Origin: a virus
Reading direction: 5' to 3' (one strand)
Virus record (IMG/VR): IMGVR_UViG_3300033571_007994
Coordinates: 1-34,723 of that record
Length of the DNA stretch: 34,723 nucleotides
A model generated the notes under the pieces. It did no database searches. It had not been told where the DNA came from and saw only the letters and a list, made by a program, of their open reading frames with translations. This document shows positions 3,763 to 34,723 of the stretch, one piece after another (the first letter of the stretch is position 1; the number at the start of each line of letters is the position of its first letter). A program made the translations under genes and the position numbers.

Positions 3763-6700
3763 TTATCCTCTGCTCTTATAATAGTCCCACGCAGTGTTAA
3801 TTTTATATACATACTCCCTAGATTCCCTTGGCACCTTAAACGGCATGGAATTAGAGTATCTGATAATGTTATTAAACGTAGCAGGTTTCGACCTACCTTG
3901 CAGCCACCTAAGAGCTTTAGCTACGTTCCCTTCGCCCCAGTTGTATGCCATCAGACCTAAGTTTGTATCATTAAATCGATTGATGAGTTGTTGCATGTAG
4001 CGACTACCGCCTTCAATATTTTGATGTACGTCATTTGGATCTACACCAAGCGCCTTAGCTGTTCTAGGCATAAGTTGCATTGGCCCTAGAGCTCCCGCTT
4101 TACTGCGAGCGTTGGCTTTGTAATTAGACTCTACTTTGATAATAGCCCGAAGCAAAGAAGGCTCAACGTACTTATCACCGACAGGGATGGTAACTCTCGT
4201 GCCCTTGCTAGGGCTCTTTTTAGTTTCCTCTGCCTGAACTGGTGGCACAAGAACATCACCAGCTTTCTCTAATAAAGAAGCCTTCTTTTCTGGCTGTGGA
4301 GTTGGAGCAGGTGTTGTTCCGTACTCAGCAAGAATATCATCAAACTTTCCGGCTGGCTTTGTCTCTTCCTTTTTTGGAGCGGGCGACTTAGCCATGTCAG
4401 TTATTTCATTTGCGGCAGCTCCTGCAGTTACTCCAGCACCACGTCCTGTTAGGTTAGAGATTACCTTGCCAACAGGACCAGAAGCTAATGCCGGCACAGC
4501 GCCTTGTCCTGCTTTAGTAGCGGCCTTTGTCTCTGCCATCGTCGCAGCGTTTAAGACCTCTTTCATTCGCTGCGGATCTCTTAACGCAGCAGTCAAAGTC
4601 TCGCTTAAAACTTGTGCAGTTCTTGCGGCAGCAATACCTCTTCCGTATCCAACACCGGCTAGAGTTGCTGCTCCAATGCCTCCAGCTATGACAGACTTCA
4701 AGCCAAATCCACCTTCTGCGTAAGCGCCACTTCCAGCTCCAATGGCTAAGCCTAGAGCCCCACCGCTTAGTGTACGACTGAGCGCCTGGCGAGACTTGTC
4801 TCTCACAAATTGACGCATAGCAGCTTTGAATGCTTGAGCGGGAACGCTACCAGATTTAGCGTTAGCAGTTAATGCTATCTGAGCTAACTCATCTGCTGAT
4901 AGGTTCTGTATGTCCTTAGCTGTAAATCCAGGAGCAACTAATTCTGCTGCGTCCTTCTTGGACTTCAAGAACTCCTTTACATAGCCTAGAGTAGTCTTAG
5001 CGTTGTTAAATGTATCCGCTAGCTTCTTGTCGAGAGGAGAACCGTAAACTAACTTGCTACCAACATCATCAATCCACTTTAACTTTGCATTGACAGCGAC
5101 TAGAGGATTCTCAGCATCGGCACCAGTCTTAGCAAACTCGTCAAACTTAGTAGCTAGCTGCTCTTGGAATAGTTTTAGATTGTAGCCAGTCTGCTTTTGC
5201 CATTGTCTCCAAGAGCCAACATTGCTTGTTATTAGCGAGCTGACATTCTCAGGGGAAACTATCTTTTTGTTGCTAATGTTTTGCAACTGACCAGAGTGGA
5301 AGGTGTCTACAAGATTGGACCAGAAGTCATTAGCAGCGGCGTACTTAGGACCAAAGTTTGGATCCTTTTGAATAAACTCATGCACAACCTGACCAAGCTC
5401 ATTAGCAAGTCTTGCCTGCTCAGGATTCTTTTCAGCTAAATCTCGACCAGTCTGTAGCAGACCGCTACGCAAAGCAATTAACTCTTGTCCCGTAATTCTA
5501 GGATTAGAAACATCTGCCTTGCCAAACATGCGACGACTTAAATCGCCACCTTCCTGATACATACGCTTTGTAAGGAAGTCGAAAGCGTATTGAATATCTT
5601 TAGAAACATTTCCCTTACCAGGGGCAAATAGCTGCTTGTATAGGTCAGAGAAAGACCTCTTTAGATCGTCACGAGCGTACTCAACTCCCTGCGGCAAGTC
5701 TTCGTACATTTTATTGCCAGCCGTGTGAAGCTCTCGCATTCTCATTCCAATATAACGCTGAGTCTTGTCTTGAGCAGCAATTACTTCTTCTGGATTATCT
5801 AGCGAGATATTCTTGGTAACGTCTTTTAACTCTTGAACTGCTAAGGATATCTGTCTTCTAGTGTTGTCCCAGAAGCTCTGTTTGCCAACACCAGAGCTCT
5901 TCTCTGCTACGGCTTCTAACGTAGCCAACTGAGGATTCTGAAGCAGTTCGGCAGGAGTGAGAGAGGTTAATAAAGGATTGTCAGATTGCTGTGCTGCTGT
6001 GTAGGCATTATCCAACTGCTGACTAGTAACACCTAAGCTCTTTATGATTGAGCCGGTAGCAGCATCTGCCTCTTGCTTAGAGAGGGGATTAAAGAACTCC
6101 ACAACCTTCTGAGGTATCTTAGCAGCTCCTTTTGCAGCAGCTGGAATAGCACCAAGGCCAGACATTACTCCAGGGAGTGCTGCGCCAGTTACTGCACCAA
6201 CTCCTCCACCTATGGCTCTTTTTAGTAAGCCCATAGCGGCACTATCTTCTGCTGTAGGCTCAACAGAGCCAGCGCCTTGAACGCCTCCTTGCAGAGCTCC
6301 TACCTTCATCAACTGACCTAGCTGATTTAAGCGAGGAACTTCTTCAACAAGAGAGCCAGCGGCTCTTGCCTTTCGTGTTAGCTCTCCAGCGGTAGTTCCG
6401 AAAGTCAGCATTTCTCCAAGAGTGGGAATCGTTCTCCCTGCCTGAACTGCTGCAGCGGCTGGATTAGTAAAAAGCAGCGGCAAAATAGCTCCGCCTGCTG
6501 TTCCTGCTATCGACGCAGCAGGATTAGTTTCCATTAGCTGCTCTTTGGCAGAGCCATAGTCTCTAATAAGCTCGCTATACGACTTTCCGCCTAGCGTACC
6601 TTGCCCAATATTCATGCTAGGGAGAAGCGACTCTAAGCCTGCGGCAGTCTCAGTACCAAGTCCAAAGAAGGCAGTATCGCCAAGATTTAAAGCTGCTGCT

Positions 6701-26318: not shown

Positions 26319-26591
26319 TCAACAGCAATCGATCATCAGCTGGCCGAACTCCTCCCAAGTCAAACCGCTAATCTCTTTAAGCGCCACAATCTCACCGATG
26401 CGGTATTGTTCTTTCATTTTTTCACGGTATCGCCAAGCGCTGTAGCTGATACCGACTAGCTTCGCCATATCATACCGACCGAGTTTCTTGGCTCGCCTTA
26501 CCTGACAATACAAAGATTGCTTGGCCCTACTAATCTCATAAGGTCGCCTAACAGCTAGCCAGAACTTTTCTTGCATTTTTACGAAAGTCAT
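26319..26591 (-). CDS. HTH-like phage regulator (Cro/repressor-type candidate)
   Basis: A 90-residue basic protein transcribed divergently from the early operon. Residues ~36-56 (KKLGRYDMAKLVGISYSAWR) look like a helix-turn-helix, followed by REKMKEQYRIGEIVALKEIS and GLTWEEFGQLM, a pattern I associate with phage regulatory proteins. It is the only clear HTH gene facing the early promoters, and a 14-bp palindromic operator begins 48 bases upstream of its start, so it is the likely ligand of that operator. The ribosome site is poor. Repressor versus activator is unknown. Confidence 0.6.
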   Translation of the reverse strand: MTFVKMQEKFWLAVRRPYEISRAKQSLYCQVRRAKKLGRYDMAKLVGISYSAWRYREKMKEQYRIGEIVALKEISGLTWEEFGQLMIDCC

Positions 26592-26634: not shown

Positions 26635-26664
26635 CTTGTACTGTTAACAGTAATCCAGTAAACT
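26635..26664 (+). promoter_or_regulatory. early promoter with palindromic operator (copy 1)
   Basis: A -35-like TTGTAC (26636-26641) and a -10-like TAAACT (26659-26664) are 17 bases apart. Between and overlapping them lies the perfect 14-bp palindrome TACTGTTAACAGTA (26639-26652). The 19-mer CTTGTACTGTTAACAGTAA is repeated exactly at 29056-29074 in the second early promoter. A protein bound here would block polymerase, and it would also lie over the upstream region of the divergent regulator gene. Confidence 0.7.
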
Positions 26665-29055: not shown

Positions 29056-29085
29056 CTTGTACTGTTAACAGTAAACTGATATTGT
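29056..29085 (+). promoter_or_regulatory. second early promoter with the same operator (copy 2)
   Basis: TTGTAC (29057-29062), 17 bases, then TATTGT (29080-29085), with the same perfect palindrome TACTGTTAACAGTA at 29060-29073. The 19-mer at 29056-29074 is identical to 26635-26653. It should drive the recombination/replication operon starting at 29478 under the same control as the first early operon. Confidence 0.68.
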
Positions 29086-29465: not shown

Positions 29466-29477
29466 ATGGAGAATAAT

Positions 29478-30110
29478 ATGAATGACTTAATGATAATTGA
29501 TTATAAGGATGCTCATGTCCTTAAAGTCCTCAAACATACAGTAGCTCGTGGCGCAACAGACGCAGAATTTGCCCTGTTCATTGAGTATTGTAAGAGCACC
29601 AAGCTAAATCCCTTTAAGAAGGAAATCTGGTTTATCAAGGTTGGAGATAGACTCCAGCTTATGACTGGTATCAACGGCTACTGGACAATAGCTAACAACC
29701 ATCCAGCCTTCGATGGTGCTGAGTGCGGTATGATAGACCTCGAAGGTAACTGGATTAAGTCAGTAGCTGGCGACAACTTTATCGGTGCTTGGTGTCGTGT
29801 CTACCGTAAGGATAGGAAGTTTCCGATGGAAGGTGAAGCTATGCTAGCTGACTACAATAGCGGTATGGGCCTCTGGAAGAACAAACCTCGCATTATGATT
29901 AAGAAAGTGGCTGAGAGTATAGCTTTGAGAAAAGCATTCGCTCAGGAGCTTAATGGGCTTTATACGCAGGAGGAGATGCCAGCTAACTTTGCTCCACCAA
30001 AGGCAGAGTTTGTGTCGGTTGAGGCTGTTCCTGCAGTAGAAGAGCCAGCAAAAGAAGAAGTAACATTTGAGGAGGATGAGATTCCGTGGACAAAGACAGC
30101 AAAGAAGTAG
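29478..30110 (+). CDS. bet: Bet/RecT-family single-strand annealing protein
   Basis: A 210-residue protein with the Red-beta family pattern: FALFIEYCKSTKLNPFKKEI, then GDRLQLMTGINGYWTIANNH, later IMIKKVAESIALRKAF, QELNGLYTQEE. It anneals complementary single strands during recombination-dependent replication. I use the second ATG (29478), six bases after GGAG, not the one at 29466. No partner exonuclease of the Red-alpha/RecE kind is seen, but PD-(D/E)xK proteins at 407 and 31802 could serve. The C terminus has EEDEIPW, close to an SSB-type acidic tip but not terminal. Confidence 0.88.
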   Translation: MNDLMIIDYKDAHVLKVLKHTVARGATDAEFALFIEYCKSTKLNPFKKEIWFIKVGDRLQLMTGINGYWTIANNHPAFDGAECGMIDLEGNWIKSVAGDNFIGAWCRVYRKDRKFPMEGEAMLADYNSGMGLWKNKPRIMIKKVAESIALRKAFAQELNGLYTQEEMPANFAPPKAEFVSVEAVPAVEEPAKEEVTFEEDEIPWTKTAKK

Positions 30111-30286
30111 CTAAGTGGCGGGATCAGAAGCGGCGAGACGCTCCTAAGATAGGGCATACCAGATGGTGTACCTATGTCGATAAAAAAGTGCTCGCCGACT
30201 TTAAAGCAACCGCTAAGAAAGAGAATAAAACATTAACAAAAGCAGTCGAGGAAGCACTCCAAAACTGGACTTATTACGAAGATTAG
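30086..30286 (+). CDS. ribbon-helix-helix-like DNA-binding protein
   Basis: A 66-residue basic protein with a strand (TRWCTYVDKKVL) followed by two helices (ADFKATAKKENKTLTKAVEE, ALQNW), the CopG/Arc-type layout. GTG start at 30086, with GGAGG nine bases before, overlapping the bet gene by 25 bases. Its stop lies three bases before the DnaA-box array, so it could bind the origin or the local promoter. DNA binding is inferred from the fold pattern. Confidence 0.6.
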   Translation: MDKDSKEVAKWRDQKRRDAPKIGHTRWCTYVDKKVLADFKATAKKENKTLTKAVEEALQNWTYYED

Positions 30287-30289
30287 CCC

Positions 30290-30342
30290 TGTGGATAACC
30301 TGTGGATAACCTGTGGATAAGTTGTGGATAACCTGTGGATAA
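30290..30342 (-). other. array of five DnaA boxes, candidate replication origin
   Basis: Five copies of TGTGGATAA (each the reverse complement of the strict DnaA box TTATCCACA) start at 30290, 30301, 30312, 30323 and 30334, exactly 11 bp apart and all in one direction. The array fills the 59-base gap between two genes. Eleven-base spacing puts all boxes on the same helical face, suited to a DnaA filament. AT-rich repeats and a G-quadruplex motif lie ~430-560 bases downstream. Perfect copies are seen directly; origin function is inferred. Confidence 0.82.
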
Positions 30343-30345
30343 CTT

Positions 30346-30615
30346 ATGAAGATAGCATTTAAATTAGACAATGTTGGCTTTGTTGGAGAGGCTCACCTCT
30401 ACCGATTGAGCGAACCTCTCGACGGACACGAATACGTCATCGTTTCTGCGATAAATTTAATCCTTGGACCTGAGACTTTAGTGTTTCCAGCCAATAAACA
30501 TGGCGAGATTCAAGGTTGGGGGGACTCTCTAGTGAAGCTAGAAGGTACTTGGGACCACTCTCTGGCACTGCAAAGTGCTGGTTATGAGTATGTAGAGGGA
30601 GATAATATCCATTAA
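30346..30615 (+). CDS. small protein at the origin, unknown function
   Basis: An 89-residue acidic-neutral beta protein (MKIAFKLDNVGFVGEAHLYR start). The ATG comes four bases after the last DnaA box, whose GGAT would be the only ribosome-site-like sequence, so DnaA binding sites double as its leader. No family recognised. DnaA occupancy could block its expression. Confidence 0.55.
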   Translation: MKIAFKLDNVGFVGEAHLYRLSEPLDGHEYVIVSAINLILGPETLVFPANKHGEIQGWGDSLVKLEGTWDHSLALQSAGYEYVEGDNIH

Positions 30616-30674: not shown

Positions 30675-30791
30675 ATGAATGACTTTCGTTTGATCCTTTT
30701 CACCGTACCAGACTTGTTTTCCTCAATCAACCTGTTTACAGTAGCCGTTCAATCTGTTCTTTATTGTGTATATATAGATCTAATTAATTAA
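30675..30791 (+). CDS. possible 38-residue hydrophobic peptide
   Basis: ATG 30675 follows TTGGAGATCGACACGA and opens 38 codons (MNDFRLILFTVPDLFSSINL start, hydrophobic, ending YIDLIN). The last codons run into the first 22-bp AT-rich repeat, so the frame may be fortuitous. It is the only frame with a ribosome site in the 30616-30952 gap. The gap otherwise holds the AT repeats and the G-quadruplex motif. Confidence 0.28.
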   Translation: MNDFRLILFTVPDLFSSINLFTVAVQSVLYCVYIDLIN

Positions 30792-30815
30792 GGATATATA
30801 GATCTAATTAATTAA
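30770..30815. repeat. two perfect 22-bp AT-rich direct repeats (candidate unwinding element)
   Basis: The 22-mer at 30770-30791 (begins ATATATAGATCT, ends AATTAATTAA) is repeated exactly at 30794-30815, a 24-bp period. The stretch 30761-30855 is almost entirely A/T. Directly repeated AT-rich units near DnaA boxes are the usual form of a DNA unwinding element. Repeat identity is seen; the role is inferred. Confidence 0.65.
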
Positions 30816-30866
30816 CTAATGATTAGATTGAATGAATATATGATTAATAAGAATGAGTGAATGAGA

Positions 30867-30900
30867 GGGGGATAGGGGGATTCTTAAGGGGGAAAGGGGG
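30867..30900 (+). other. G-quadruplex motif G5-N3-G5-N8-G5-N3-G5
   Basis: Four runs of exactly five G's at 30867-30871, 30875-30879, 30888-30892 and 30896-30900, with loops ATA, ATTCTTAA and AAA. Such a sequence can form a very stable intramolecular quadruplex in the plus strand or in rightward RNA. It lies between the AT-rich repeats and the helicase-loader gene and takes the place a hairpin holds in the other early leaders (module D). Confidence 0.7.
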
Positions 30901-30952
30901 AGGTTGTCAATAGGTCAAGAGCAAAATAATTTACTTGGAGATAAAAAAGACT

Positions 30953-31468
30953 ATGAATGTAGAACAAACTAAACAAATCATGCGCCTCTTGTGGTGTGAA
31001 TACGGCGATAAAGTTATCTGCACCGAAAACAGAGCTAAGGTCTGGTACACGATTTTAGGCCACGCCAATTACCAAGAGGCTGAGCTCGCAGTCGCTAGCC
31101 TTCTGTCAGAGGCCAGAGCGTTCCCTCCCTCAGTCGGAGAAGTGAACCAGCGCATACTTGAACATCGCAGACCAGCCTCCCAGGACTGGTCAACTTTATG
31201 GGATTTGGTGCTGCAAGCCGGAAAGCGGTCAGCGTATGACTCCCAGAATCAAATTAAAGCCCTCCCAGAGGCTGCACAACGAGCTATCGGTGGTGCGGCT
31301 GGCCTGAGAGAGCTTGCCCTGTCAGATAACGCCACCTTGGCGATTATACGGGCTCAGTTTCGTCAGCGTCTTGAGGCTATAAACCAACATGTTAAAGTGG
31401 AGGAGACTAAACAGTCGCTCCTTGAGATACTGCCGAAGGTAAACGTAAACATTAAAACCATAGGATGA
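30953..31468 (+). CDS. replicative helicase loader/inhibitor (G39P-like)
   Basis: A 171-residue protein from ATG 30953 (a TTG at 30935 inside the ribosome site is not used). The N-terminal ~75 residues follow the G39P helicase-loader pattern: a first helix (VEQTKQIMRLLWCEYGDKV), WYTILGHANYQEAELAVAS, and ARAFPPSVGEVNQRI. The C-terminal part is helical. Such proteins load the replicative helicase at the origin. This phage has no helicase gene, so the target would be host DnaB. It lies immediately downstream of the putative origin. Confidence 0.65.
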   Translation: MNVEQTKQIMRLLWCEYGDKVICTENRAKVWYTILGHANYQEAELAVASLLSEARAFPPSVGEVNQRILEHRRPASQDWSTLWDLVLQAGKRSAYDSQNQIKALPEAAQRAIGGAAGLRELALSDNATLAIIRAQFRQRLEAINQHVKVEETKQSLLEILPKVNVNIKTIG

Positions 31469-32398: not shown

Positions 32399-32654
32399 AA
32401 TATCCGAAGAAATGTTTTCTTACAGTAGAAGCTATTTAGGCATAGCTCGTCCAATGGTGGCAGACGTGCATGTGTTGGGTATTCAATATGACATCCCTAT
32501 AAATGACAAAGATTGGCATAGCATGAGCGTAGAGCAGCGCATAGAGCACTACAAGAAAGAGTTTAATAGCCGTTTAGAGGCTACGCTAGCTGAAATAGAG
32601 CGGCATACTAAATGGTATTCTGAGCGAATAAAAAAGGAGAAAGGTAATGGATAA
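32391..32654 (+). CDS. small accessory protein, unknown function
   Basis: An 87-residue protein; the N-terminal half is mixed and the C-terminal half is a charged helix (VEQRIEHYKKEFNSRLEATL, then AEIERHTKWY). No family recognised. The ATG overlaps the previous stop region by eight bases, and the end overlaps the next gene by eight bases, indicating coupled translation. Confidence 0.58.
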   Translation: MSKISEEMFSYSRSYLGIARPMVADVHVLGIQYDIPINDKDWHSMSVEQRIEHYKKEFNSRLEATLAEIERHTKWYSERIKKEKGNG

Positions 32655-32991
32655 AACAAATGAGCAATTAGCAGAAGAAGGAGAGCGTTTTAACCATGGA
32701 CATCCAGTGCAAGTAAAAGCAGCGCAATATGCTAAAGACAAAAGTAATGATGCTGATGCAAAGGCGGCGTATCAAGAAGCATTGGAGGAGGTTGATTTAG
32801 ATAAAACATGGCAAGAAGGCTACAAAGCAGCACAGGCTATAGTCGAGGAGGAGCTGCAAGCGGTGCAAGCACAGCGAGTAGAACGCCCTGGACTAGGTTC
32901 TGCGGAATATGCGCTAAAAAGTGTATTGGCAAAGTTGGGGGCAAATGAAAACACCGGAAGAGATGGCGTACAATTACGGCGAAAAGTTTGA
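32647..32991 (+). CDS. acidic helical protein with a repeat shared with the next gene
   Basis: A 114-residue, mostly helical, acidic protein. Residues ~35-60 (SNDADAKAAYQEALEEVDLD, then W-QEGYKAAQ) closely match two separated stretches of the following gene product (WYDGYRAAQ and DADARAAYQEALEE). The DNA is also similar there. Ribosome site GGAGAAAGG before the ATG. The 3' end overlaps the next gene by 47 bases. Function unknown. Confidence 0.55.
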   Translation: MDKTNEQLAEEGERFNHGHPVQVKAAQYAKDKSNDADAKAAYQEALEEVDLDKTWQEGYKAAQAIVEEELQAVQAQRVERPGLGSAEYALKSVLAKLGANENTGRDGVQLRRKV

Positions 32992-33586
32992 CGGCGTAGA
33001 GATAAGCAAAAGCGACATTAATATAGCTTGGTATGATGGCTACAGGGCAGCACAAGAACATGCACACGCAGCGCTAGAGGAGGCTGAAGCTAGGATACAA
33101 GAATTGCGCGATCAGCTAATGAAAGAGTCTGGCGGTAGGCTAAAACTATTTAAAGATGACGCTGATGCAAGGGCAGCATATCAAGAAGCGTTGGAGGAGG
33201 CTAAGTTGGAGGAGGCTAAGTTGGAGAAGGCTAAATGGATAACTGAAAAGCAAAAGAAAGAGCTCTGCGGAATATTTAAACACGAAGACGAGATATGGCC
33301 CGATGGATACGTTCAACTCTGGATTCCAAACGACATCAATCGCTACGCTATTGTACTAGGTCGCAAAGGCCAAGATAGAGATGGAAAGTCCGTCCTAGTC
33401 GCAGGATTCCGCAATCCGTTTGGAGCTGACCAAGAGCCTCTAATGCTTCCAGGAGATGAGTATAAGTATTGGTGCGAAACTCCAAGGCTTACTGAGGAGA
33501 TGGAGAAAAAACGAAAAGAAGTGCTCGCTGAGCAGGACAAGGGCAATCCAATGTATCCATATCAGCAGGAGGAGGAGGATGTATAA
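32945..33586 (+). CDS. coiled-coil protein with duplicated repeat and C-terminal beta domain
   Basis: A 213-residue protein read from ATG 32945 (GGGGG upstream), not from a TTG-type start at 32921. N-terminal helices carry YDGYRAAQ and DADARAAYQEALEE, shared with the upstream gene, then a tandem LEEAKLEEAKLEKAK stretch. Residues ~110-165 (WPDGYVQLWIPNDIN, YAIVLGRKGQDRDGK, VLVAGFRNPF) look like a small beta domain. The C terminus is acidic (QQEEEDV). No family recognised. Confidence 0.58.
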   Translation: MKTPEEMAYNYGEKFDGVEISKSDINIAWYDGYRAAQEHAHAALEEAEARIQELRDQLMKESGGRLKLFKDDADARAAYQEALEEAKLEEAKLEKAKWITEKQKKELCGIFKHEDEIWPDGYVQLWIPNDINRYAIVLGRKGQDRDGKSVLVAGFRNPFGADQEPLMLPGDEYKYWCETPRLTEEMEKKRKEVLAEQDKGNPMYPYQQEEEDV

Positions 33587-34379: not shown

Positions 34380-34723
34380 GTTGGTGAGTTAGTGCAAGGA
34401 TGGAGGTGTGCTGAGGAAAGCGTTCTCCTGCGCTTAATCAGGTAGGTGTTGCGCAACATCGTAGACGTTCGCCATTAAGAAATGGCAATACAGCAAAAAT
34501 AGCTCAGCTGGTTAGAGCAAGAGATTGATAATCTTTAGGTCATTGGTTCGAGTCCAATATTTTGCCCCCGTAATGTGGATATGGGAAAACTGAAAGGAAT
34601 CCCGAATATCTGAACAGCGAACTGCGAAGAAGCGTATATCCGAATTGATGAACATGAGAACTGGTACTGAGTTAATTCCGAATAACCAACCTCAGGATTC
34701 CTACCTTGCATTAACTCACCAAC
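34380..34723 (+). ncRNA. candidate 344-nt structured RNA enclosing a tRNA
   Basis: The stretch starts with GTTGGTGAGTTAGTGCAAGG (34380-34399) and ends with its complement, CCTTGCATTAACTCACCAAC (34704-34723), 19 Watson-Crick pairs plus one G-T/A change site. Inside, CTGAGG (34411-34416) pairs with CCTCAG (34690-34695). Local hairpins lie at 34418-34435, 34445-34460 (TGTTGCGCAACA palindrome), 34471-34486 (GCCATT-AAGA-AATGGC) and 34578-34610. A tRNA sits at 34493-34566. No coding frame of note. Large phage RNAs such as GOLLD and ROOL also lie near tRNAs, but this one is shorter and I see no clear match. Confidence 0.6.
34493..34566 (+). tRNA. tRNA-Ile (anticodon GAU)
   Basis: A full cloverleaf. 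The acceptor arms are GCAAAAA and ATTTTGC (six pairs, A7-A66 mismatch). The D arm is GCTC-AGCTGGTTA-GAGC. The anticodon arm is AGAGA-TTGATAA-TCTTT, giving anticodon GAT. The variable loop is AGGTC and the T arm ATTGG-TTCGAGT-CCAAT. The discriminator is C and CCA is not encoded, both unusual for tRNA-Ile, so processing and charging are uncertain. It lies inside the 34380-34723 structure. Confidence 0.82.

Follow-up and report, generated by a model that had tools for sequence, protein, structure and literature searches.

Why should a phage carry five perfect DnaA boxes, in register, in a short gap between two of its early genes? In the window (the whole stretch of 34,723 nucleotides of viral DNA analysed here, a linear contig that may be incomplete), five copies of the box TTATCCACA are present on the minus strand at 30290–30342. 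They start at 30290, 30301, 30312, 30323, and 30334 (the plus-strand word being TGTGGATAA), that is, in steps of 11 bp, and they lie in a single intergenic gap of 59 bp (30287–30345), between the stop codon of a small ribbon-helix-helix-like (RHH) protein gene at 30286 and an ATG at 30346, just as the original prediction had described. "Perfect" denotes here the exact word TTATCCACA, from which the box consensus of the host may differ. The window contains no further perfect box, and the array is its top-scoring tandem repeat (period 11, score 98). This is a cluster of consensus boxes of the oriC type, with a spacing suited to DnaA oligomerisation: the 2-bp gap is that of the E. coli oriC arrays, where it sets DnaA molecules on one face of the DNA (PMC4451416, PMC6070618). 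The "same face" of the original prediction is nevertheless approximate, since 11 bp exceeds the helical turn of about 10.5 bp.

The claim that such an arrangement is very unlikely by chance has been borne out. Under a first-order Markov model, the window would be expected to contain 0.21 perfect boxes in total, and five in register by independent chance would have a probability of about 1e-23. Since tandem repeats can arise by slippage, slippage of one 11-bp unit is the fairer null, and under it the probability that the box occurs in a random 11-mer unit is about 7e-5. Chance or base composition as the source of the array has been rejected on the basis of the Markov expectation and of the control-word counts given below. 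Slippage also underlies a different explanation, according to which one box that stood there for an unrelated reason gave rise to the others by tandem copying, the array as such being without function. The related record L005 has a single box at the same place, and the spacers of adjacent boxes in viral arrays are alike in 71% of cases versus 47% expected, as this explanation would have it. On the other hand, the spacers on the box strand are GG in three of four cases and AC in the fourth, so one spacer has changed while all 45 of the 45 box positions are intact, and viral clusters keep to one phase (11/12, 22, and 33 bp), even where the boxes are on opposite strands; neutral copying is considered very unlikely.

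Other readings of the array depend on its neighbours. On its 5′ side, a gene for a RecT/Bet single-strand annealing protein (29466–30110, plus strand; PF03837, 2e-32; phrog_252, 9e-37) precedes the RHH gene (30086–30286, plus strand; weak Pfam and PHROGs matches), which stops immediately short of the array. Binding to short tandem repeats beside the encoding gene is common among RHH proteins, and the five repeats might accordingly bind a phage protein such as this one, their likeness to DnaA boxes being a coincidence. This is most improbable: the RHH gene is retained in relatives that have no array, which disfavours its product as the binder, and the same word with the same phasing recurs in unrelated phages, where the tolerated variants broadly fit TTWTNCACA. 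On the 3′ side, a small gene with no assigned function (30346–30615, plus strand), which has orthologues in L005 and L011, starts 3 bp past the last box. The position of the array between two co-directional genes, immediately 5′ of a start codon, would suit a transcriptional switch, in which DnaA, attached to the gap, would block or repress transcription of the early operon and so adjust the expression of the downstream gene and of the loader discussed below; in addition, L005 keeps the last box with its start-codon context, and only that box. However, no promoter-like site was found at the array, and the boxes of L006, L020, and L143 lie elsewhere and on the other strand, which makes a switch rather improbable. 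A coding array has been rejected, the array being intergenic and an antisense 52-aa frame across it being without support. An RNA element has been rejected as well, because folding of the transcript is no better than that of shuffles (z = +0.9); an Rfam search matched no family apart from a tRNA.

Beyond the small gene lie about 330 bp of noncoding DNA. They hold the least stable 80 bp of the window (30769–30848, no strand assigned; 85% AT, z = −5.5), a candidate DNA-unwinding element that contains a 24-bp direct repeat including ATATATAGATCTAATTAATTAA and is separated from the array by about 430 bp and one small gene. They also hold a G-run element, GGGGGATAGGGGGATTCTTAAGGGGGAAAGGGGG (30867–30900, plus strand), which is conserved 5′ of the loader and could in principle form a G-quadruplex on the loader-sense strand. 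A related observation is that a 19-bp word, GGGGGATTCTTAAGGGGGA (matched at 18 of 19 positions as GGGGATTCTTAAGGGGGA in one pass), is followed some 10–20 bp on by TGTCAA in the window (30875–30920). The word is also present in L005 (3141), L006 (1164), L143 (620), L145 (5503), L146 (2577–2595), L147 (1458), and L150 (4821–4839), with TGTCGA in place of TGTCAA in L145 and L146; besides recurring 5′ of the loader, it turns up in unrelated phages whose GC contents differ widely. The reverse complement of the whole element opens like a −35 box (TTGACA), and its G runs could form a G-quadruplex.

The noncoding interval ends at a gene for a G39P-type helicase-loader-like protein of 171 aa (30953–31468, plus strand; PF11417, phrog_2289, and fold matches). 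The gene starts 611 bp past the array, close to the 600 bp originally predicted, and its type is assigned through homologues: the PF11417 profile is matched by seven of seven loader homologues (best 3.8e-5), with the loader of the window taken alone just below the curated cut-off (20.2 bits vs 22), and phrog_2289 (helicase loader) is matched by six of the seven. The structure model is of low confidence (pLDDT 63); among viral folds it comes closest to replisome organizer/G39P proteins, at TM-scores below 0.5, and its matches in the PDB are meaningless. No solved structure was found among the loader relatives, and a loader profile search of 84,980 genomes found no relative. Attempts to assign a host through RecT and TerL gave matches below 45%, scattered over many hosts.

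A G39P-family loader would be expected to work with a DnaB-type phage helicase, and no match to the DnaB_C domain was found in the phage record or in 15 related records (16 in total). As regards the DnaB type, the original statement that the phage lacks a helicase agrees with this result; moreover, the early genes are all too short to encode a polymerase or a DnaB-type helicase. The partner of the loader is presumably host DnaB. Phage SPP1 has an organizer, G38P, to mark its origin and relies on G39P for the delivery of the helicase G40P (PMC5615212). The locus described here resembles the SPP1 module (the G35P recombinase, G38P, G39P, and G40P) in combining an annealing protein and a G39P-type loader within one early module; it differs from it in that no organizer or helicase has been recognised, and DnaA boxes are present in the interval where the initiator would be expected to act.

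The likeness to bacterial origins is close in some respects. The oriC arrays of E. coli and the four-box arrays by dnaA in Binatia-type bacteria and Dichelobacter have the same box, the same 2-bp gap, one strand per array, and easily melted DNA nearby. In E. coli, however, the oriC arrays consist of low-affinity sites with perfect boxes outside them, whereas all five boxes of the phage array are perfect and the melting region is about 430 bp off. Among phages, the P1 oriR is also an origin with DnaA boxes (annotated DnaA site at 62891–62908, one perfect and one near-perfect box), but P1 relies on RepA, an initiator of its own that acts on iterons, and has only two adjoining boxes. Here, among the early proteins scanned, no member of a Rep family and no RepA-like initiator was found, and the AT-rich repeats that are present are not recognisable as RepA-like iterons, so that the combination of a P1-type origin (a Rep initiator, with iterons beside the DnaA boxes) is absent. 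The array can be said to resemble an oriC array and the DnaA part of the P1 origin, with the differences that its candidate unwinding element is not adjacent and that no Rep initiator was found. To our knowledge, DnaA boxes occur in few phage or plasmid origins, and always beside a phage or plasmid initiator. Among openly licensed papers, the only reports on DnaA boxes in phages that were found concern a single box in a PM2-like prophage (PMC1950889) and an Ori-Finder prediction (PMC11512268); no description of phased DnaA-box arrays in phages was found there.

The locus can also be compared with that of relatives. The order recT then loader is found in eight records (in L143, the loader side only), and the number of perfect boxes in the recT–loader interval varies among them: five in the window, one in L005, two each in L006, L143, and L020, and none in L007 and L008, while that of L010 holds no more than two degenerate boxes in phase, TTATTAACA and TTTTGCACA. 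The single box of L005, whose loader is 69% identical, has the same place and the same start-codon context as the last box of the window. The pairs of L006, L143, and L020 (loaders 55–56% identical) are in 11-bp steps on the opposite strand, about 165 bp 5′ of the G-run element. Perfect boxes are thus present in five of eight loader-bearing records versus none of twelve loader-less recT relatives (Fisher p = 0.004), a rough comparison, some of the twelve ending soon after recT; with close relatives collapsed, the figures are three of five versus none of nine (p = 0.03). L011 (recT 74% identical, no loader) has one TTATGCACA beside its least stable DNA, which is 95% AT and carries AGATCTAATTA words also present, at the same place, in the AT-rich region of the window. 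The relatives retain the loader, the G-run element, and mostly a local AT-rich region, but have zero to two perfect boxes. Judged from these comparisons, the place is origin-like across the group, with box number, strand, and exact position changing. The array itself is a lineage-specific elaboration and not a fixed part, because the number of perfect boxes in relatives is 1, 2, or 0 and such boxes were seen only together with the loader.

Arrays of this kind are not confined to one lineage. Within a viral collection of 2.9 million contigs, at least five boxes at exact 11-bp steps have been found in seven other contigs, and three perfect boxes with exact 2-bp gaps in at least 119 stretches. 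With gaps of 0–25 bp, at least 120 stretches were reached after only 12 of the 119 exact-gap stretches had been passed, and therefore such clusters likely number over a thousand in the collection; the reversed word, as control, gave 19 stretches in the entire collection. Among the clusters listed, the spacing of boxes on the same strand is sharply phased at 11 and 12, then 21–23, then 32–34 bp, and boxes on opposite strands are also phased (12, 23, 34, and 45 bp). The in-phase neighbours with a single mismatch vary mainly at positions 1, 3, 5, and 6, with positions 4, 8, and 9 nearly fixed, a pattern that would broadly fit the DnaA consensus TTWTNCACA. The arrays are noncoding in 61 of 79 distinct cases, versus 25% of random positions, and the DNA within 300 bp of 44 noncoding viral arrays is less stable than that around other intergenic gaps (p = 6e-8; p = 0.001 when limited to gaps of at least 300 bp). 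In bacteria, 34 contigs have four boxes in exact 11-bp steps; in five of the 16 genomes checked, such an array is located 3′ of dnaA, no more than about 1 kb away.

The genes beside the viral arrays encode microvirus replication initiators, O-like and other initiators, a few helicase loaders, and terminases. A 16-member family of small AT-hook proteins also adjoins viral arrays (in the flanks of L024–L104, for example at 4369–4755 of L104); its first member, the one searched, matched nothing in Pfam or PHROGs, and from their look only we take these proteins to be terminase small subunits. Several named phages belong to the same picture. The T3-like Escherichia phage P483 (L278, 3446–3580) and Shigella phage A7 (L279, 2990–3115), both Berlinviruses, have perfect and near-perfect boxes in steps of about 11–12 bp in noncoding DNA not far from the terminase gene. 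The bajarodmic virus 162 (L283, 3776–3830), a microvirus of 5.6 kb, has five perfect boxes in 11- and 12-bp steps directly after its rep gene. Noncoding box clusters were also found in Pseudoalteromonas phage H101 and Limnohabitans phage DC31. All these clusters share with the present array several boxes in a noncoding gap, phased in the clearest cases, but the phages are unrelated, and the boxes of the T3-like phages and of the microvirus mark no DnaA-dependent origin in any simple way. T3-like phages and microviruses replicate without DnaA. Because phased arrays occur in such phages, an array alone is no proof of an origin, and a titration or a transcriptional role may be considered as well.

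Titration, the second reading offered in the original prediction, would mean that the boxes multiply with the phage genome, absorb host DnaA, and block new rounds of chromosome replication, the start of the phage itself needing no DnaA. Each genome offers five sites of the high-affinity type, and the frequency of phased boxes in viral contigs, including those of Berlinviruses with their own replisome and of microviruses, agrees with such a role. The locus also recalls datA of E. coli, which has several DnaA boxes outside oriC. However, datA requires an IHF site, and no IHF consensus WATCAANNNNTTR was found within 3 kb of the array. Moreover, five sites are few before the genome replicates, and titration predicts neither the adjoining easily melted DNA nor the restriction of boxes to loader-bearing relatives. 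For this locus titration is unlikely.

The best explanation of the array is that the phage starts its replication with the help of host DnaA, the array being the accessory half of the origin, to which DnaA is recruited. Judging from box sequence and spacing, host DnaA would bind the five boxes and form a head-to-tail oligomer, which, directly or looped over the small gene, may help to open the AT-rich DNA at 30769–30848, the choice of this region following its low stability. The G39P-like protein would then bring host DnaB to the opened DNA, a delivery proposed because the phage is without a DnaB-type helicase. The genome would be copied by the host replisome, with RecT possibly aiding concatemer formation. 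In terms of SPP1, DnaA would take the place of the organizer G38P and host DnaB that of the helicase G40P, and the array would be an optional booster gained in this lineage. The data on which this rests are the box sequence, the phasing, the unstable DNA, the loader homology, and the missing DnaB-type helicase match.

The origin proposed in the original prediction is in this way partly supported: by phased perfect boxes with oriC spacing, by the position of the least stable DNA between array and loader, by the loader homology and helicase absence, by the restriction of boxes to loader-bearing relatives, by the two-box arrays near the G-run element in three of them, and, more generally, by the bacterial arrays near dnaA and the unstable DNA beside viral ones. 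Against it are the sequence L011, with its TTATGCACA and no loader, the degenerate pair of L010, the absence of any box in the interval of L007 and L008 with the same module, and a GC skew that changes sign near 26.9 kb and not at 30.3 kb. We give the DnaA-dependent origin an even chance and no more, because some 430 bp and a gene separate the array from the melting region, because some relatives are boxless, and because arrays occur in phages with no need of DnaA.

The proximity of the array to the least stable DNA and to a helicase-loader-like gene suggests that the phage borrows the starter protein of its host for its own copying. If this is true, an oriC-like array and a loader, with no recognised initiator or helicase, would amount to a takeover of host initiation with very few genes. 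It is tentatively proposed that the locus represents an SPP1-type module without its own initiator and helicase, which combines a loader of its own with host DnaA captured on an oriC-like array, and that, more widely, phased arrays are a recurrent, convergent noncoding device by which many phage groups engage host DnaA, through capture or titration. Since viral clusters of the consensus are phased, mostly noncoding, and close to easily melted DNA, it becomes possible to test in general whether the engagement of host DnaA by phages serves their own start or the shutdown of the host.

Some other features of the window deserve mention. The 19-bp word CTTGTACTGTTAACAGTAA, which includes the palindrome TACTGTTAACAGTA, occurs twice without change, at 26635–26653 and 29056–29074, in gaps 5′ of rightward genes and near an HTH-like gene (26319–26591); the two copies are probable repressor operators. 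The small genes at 32647–33586 are partly duplicated (a 55-bp repeat, 84% identical), and this region includes a 15-bp tandem repeat encoding a KLEEA-type stretch. Finally, at 34380–34723 the arms of an inverted repeat (GTTGGTGAGTTAGTGCA...) enclose a tRNA gene, which in the window is that of tRNA-Ile, with the contig ending at one arm; similar arms surround a tRNA-bearing stretch at about 4970–5320 of L005, and this arrangement perhaps represents a tRNA cassette able to move, or else a break in the assembly.
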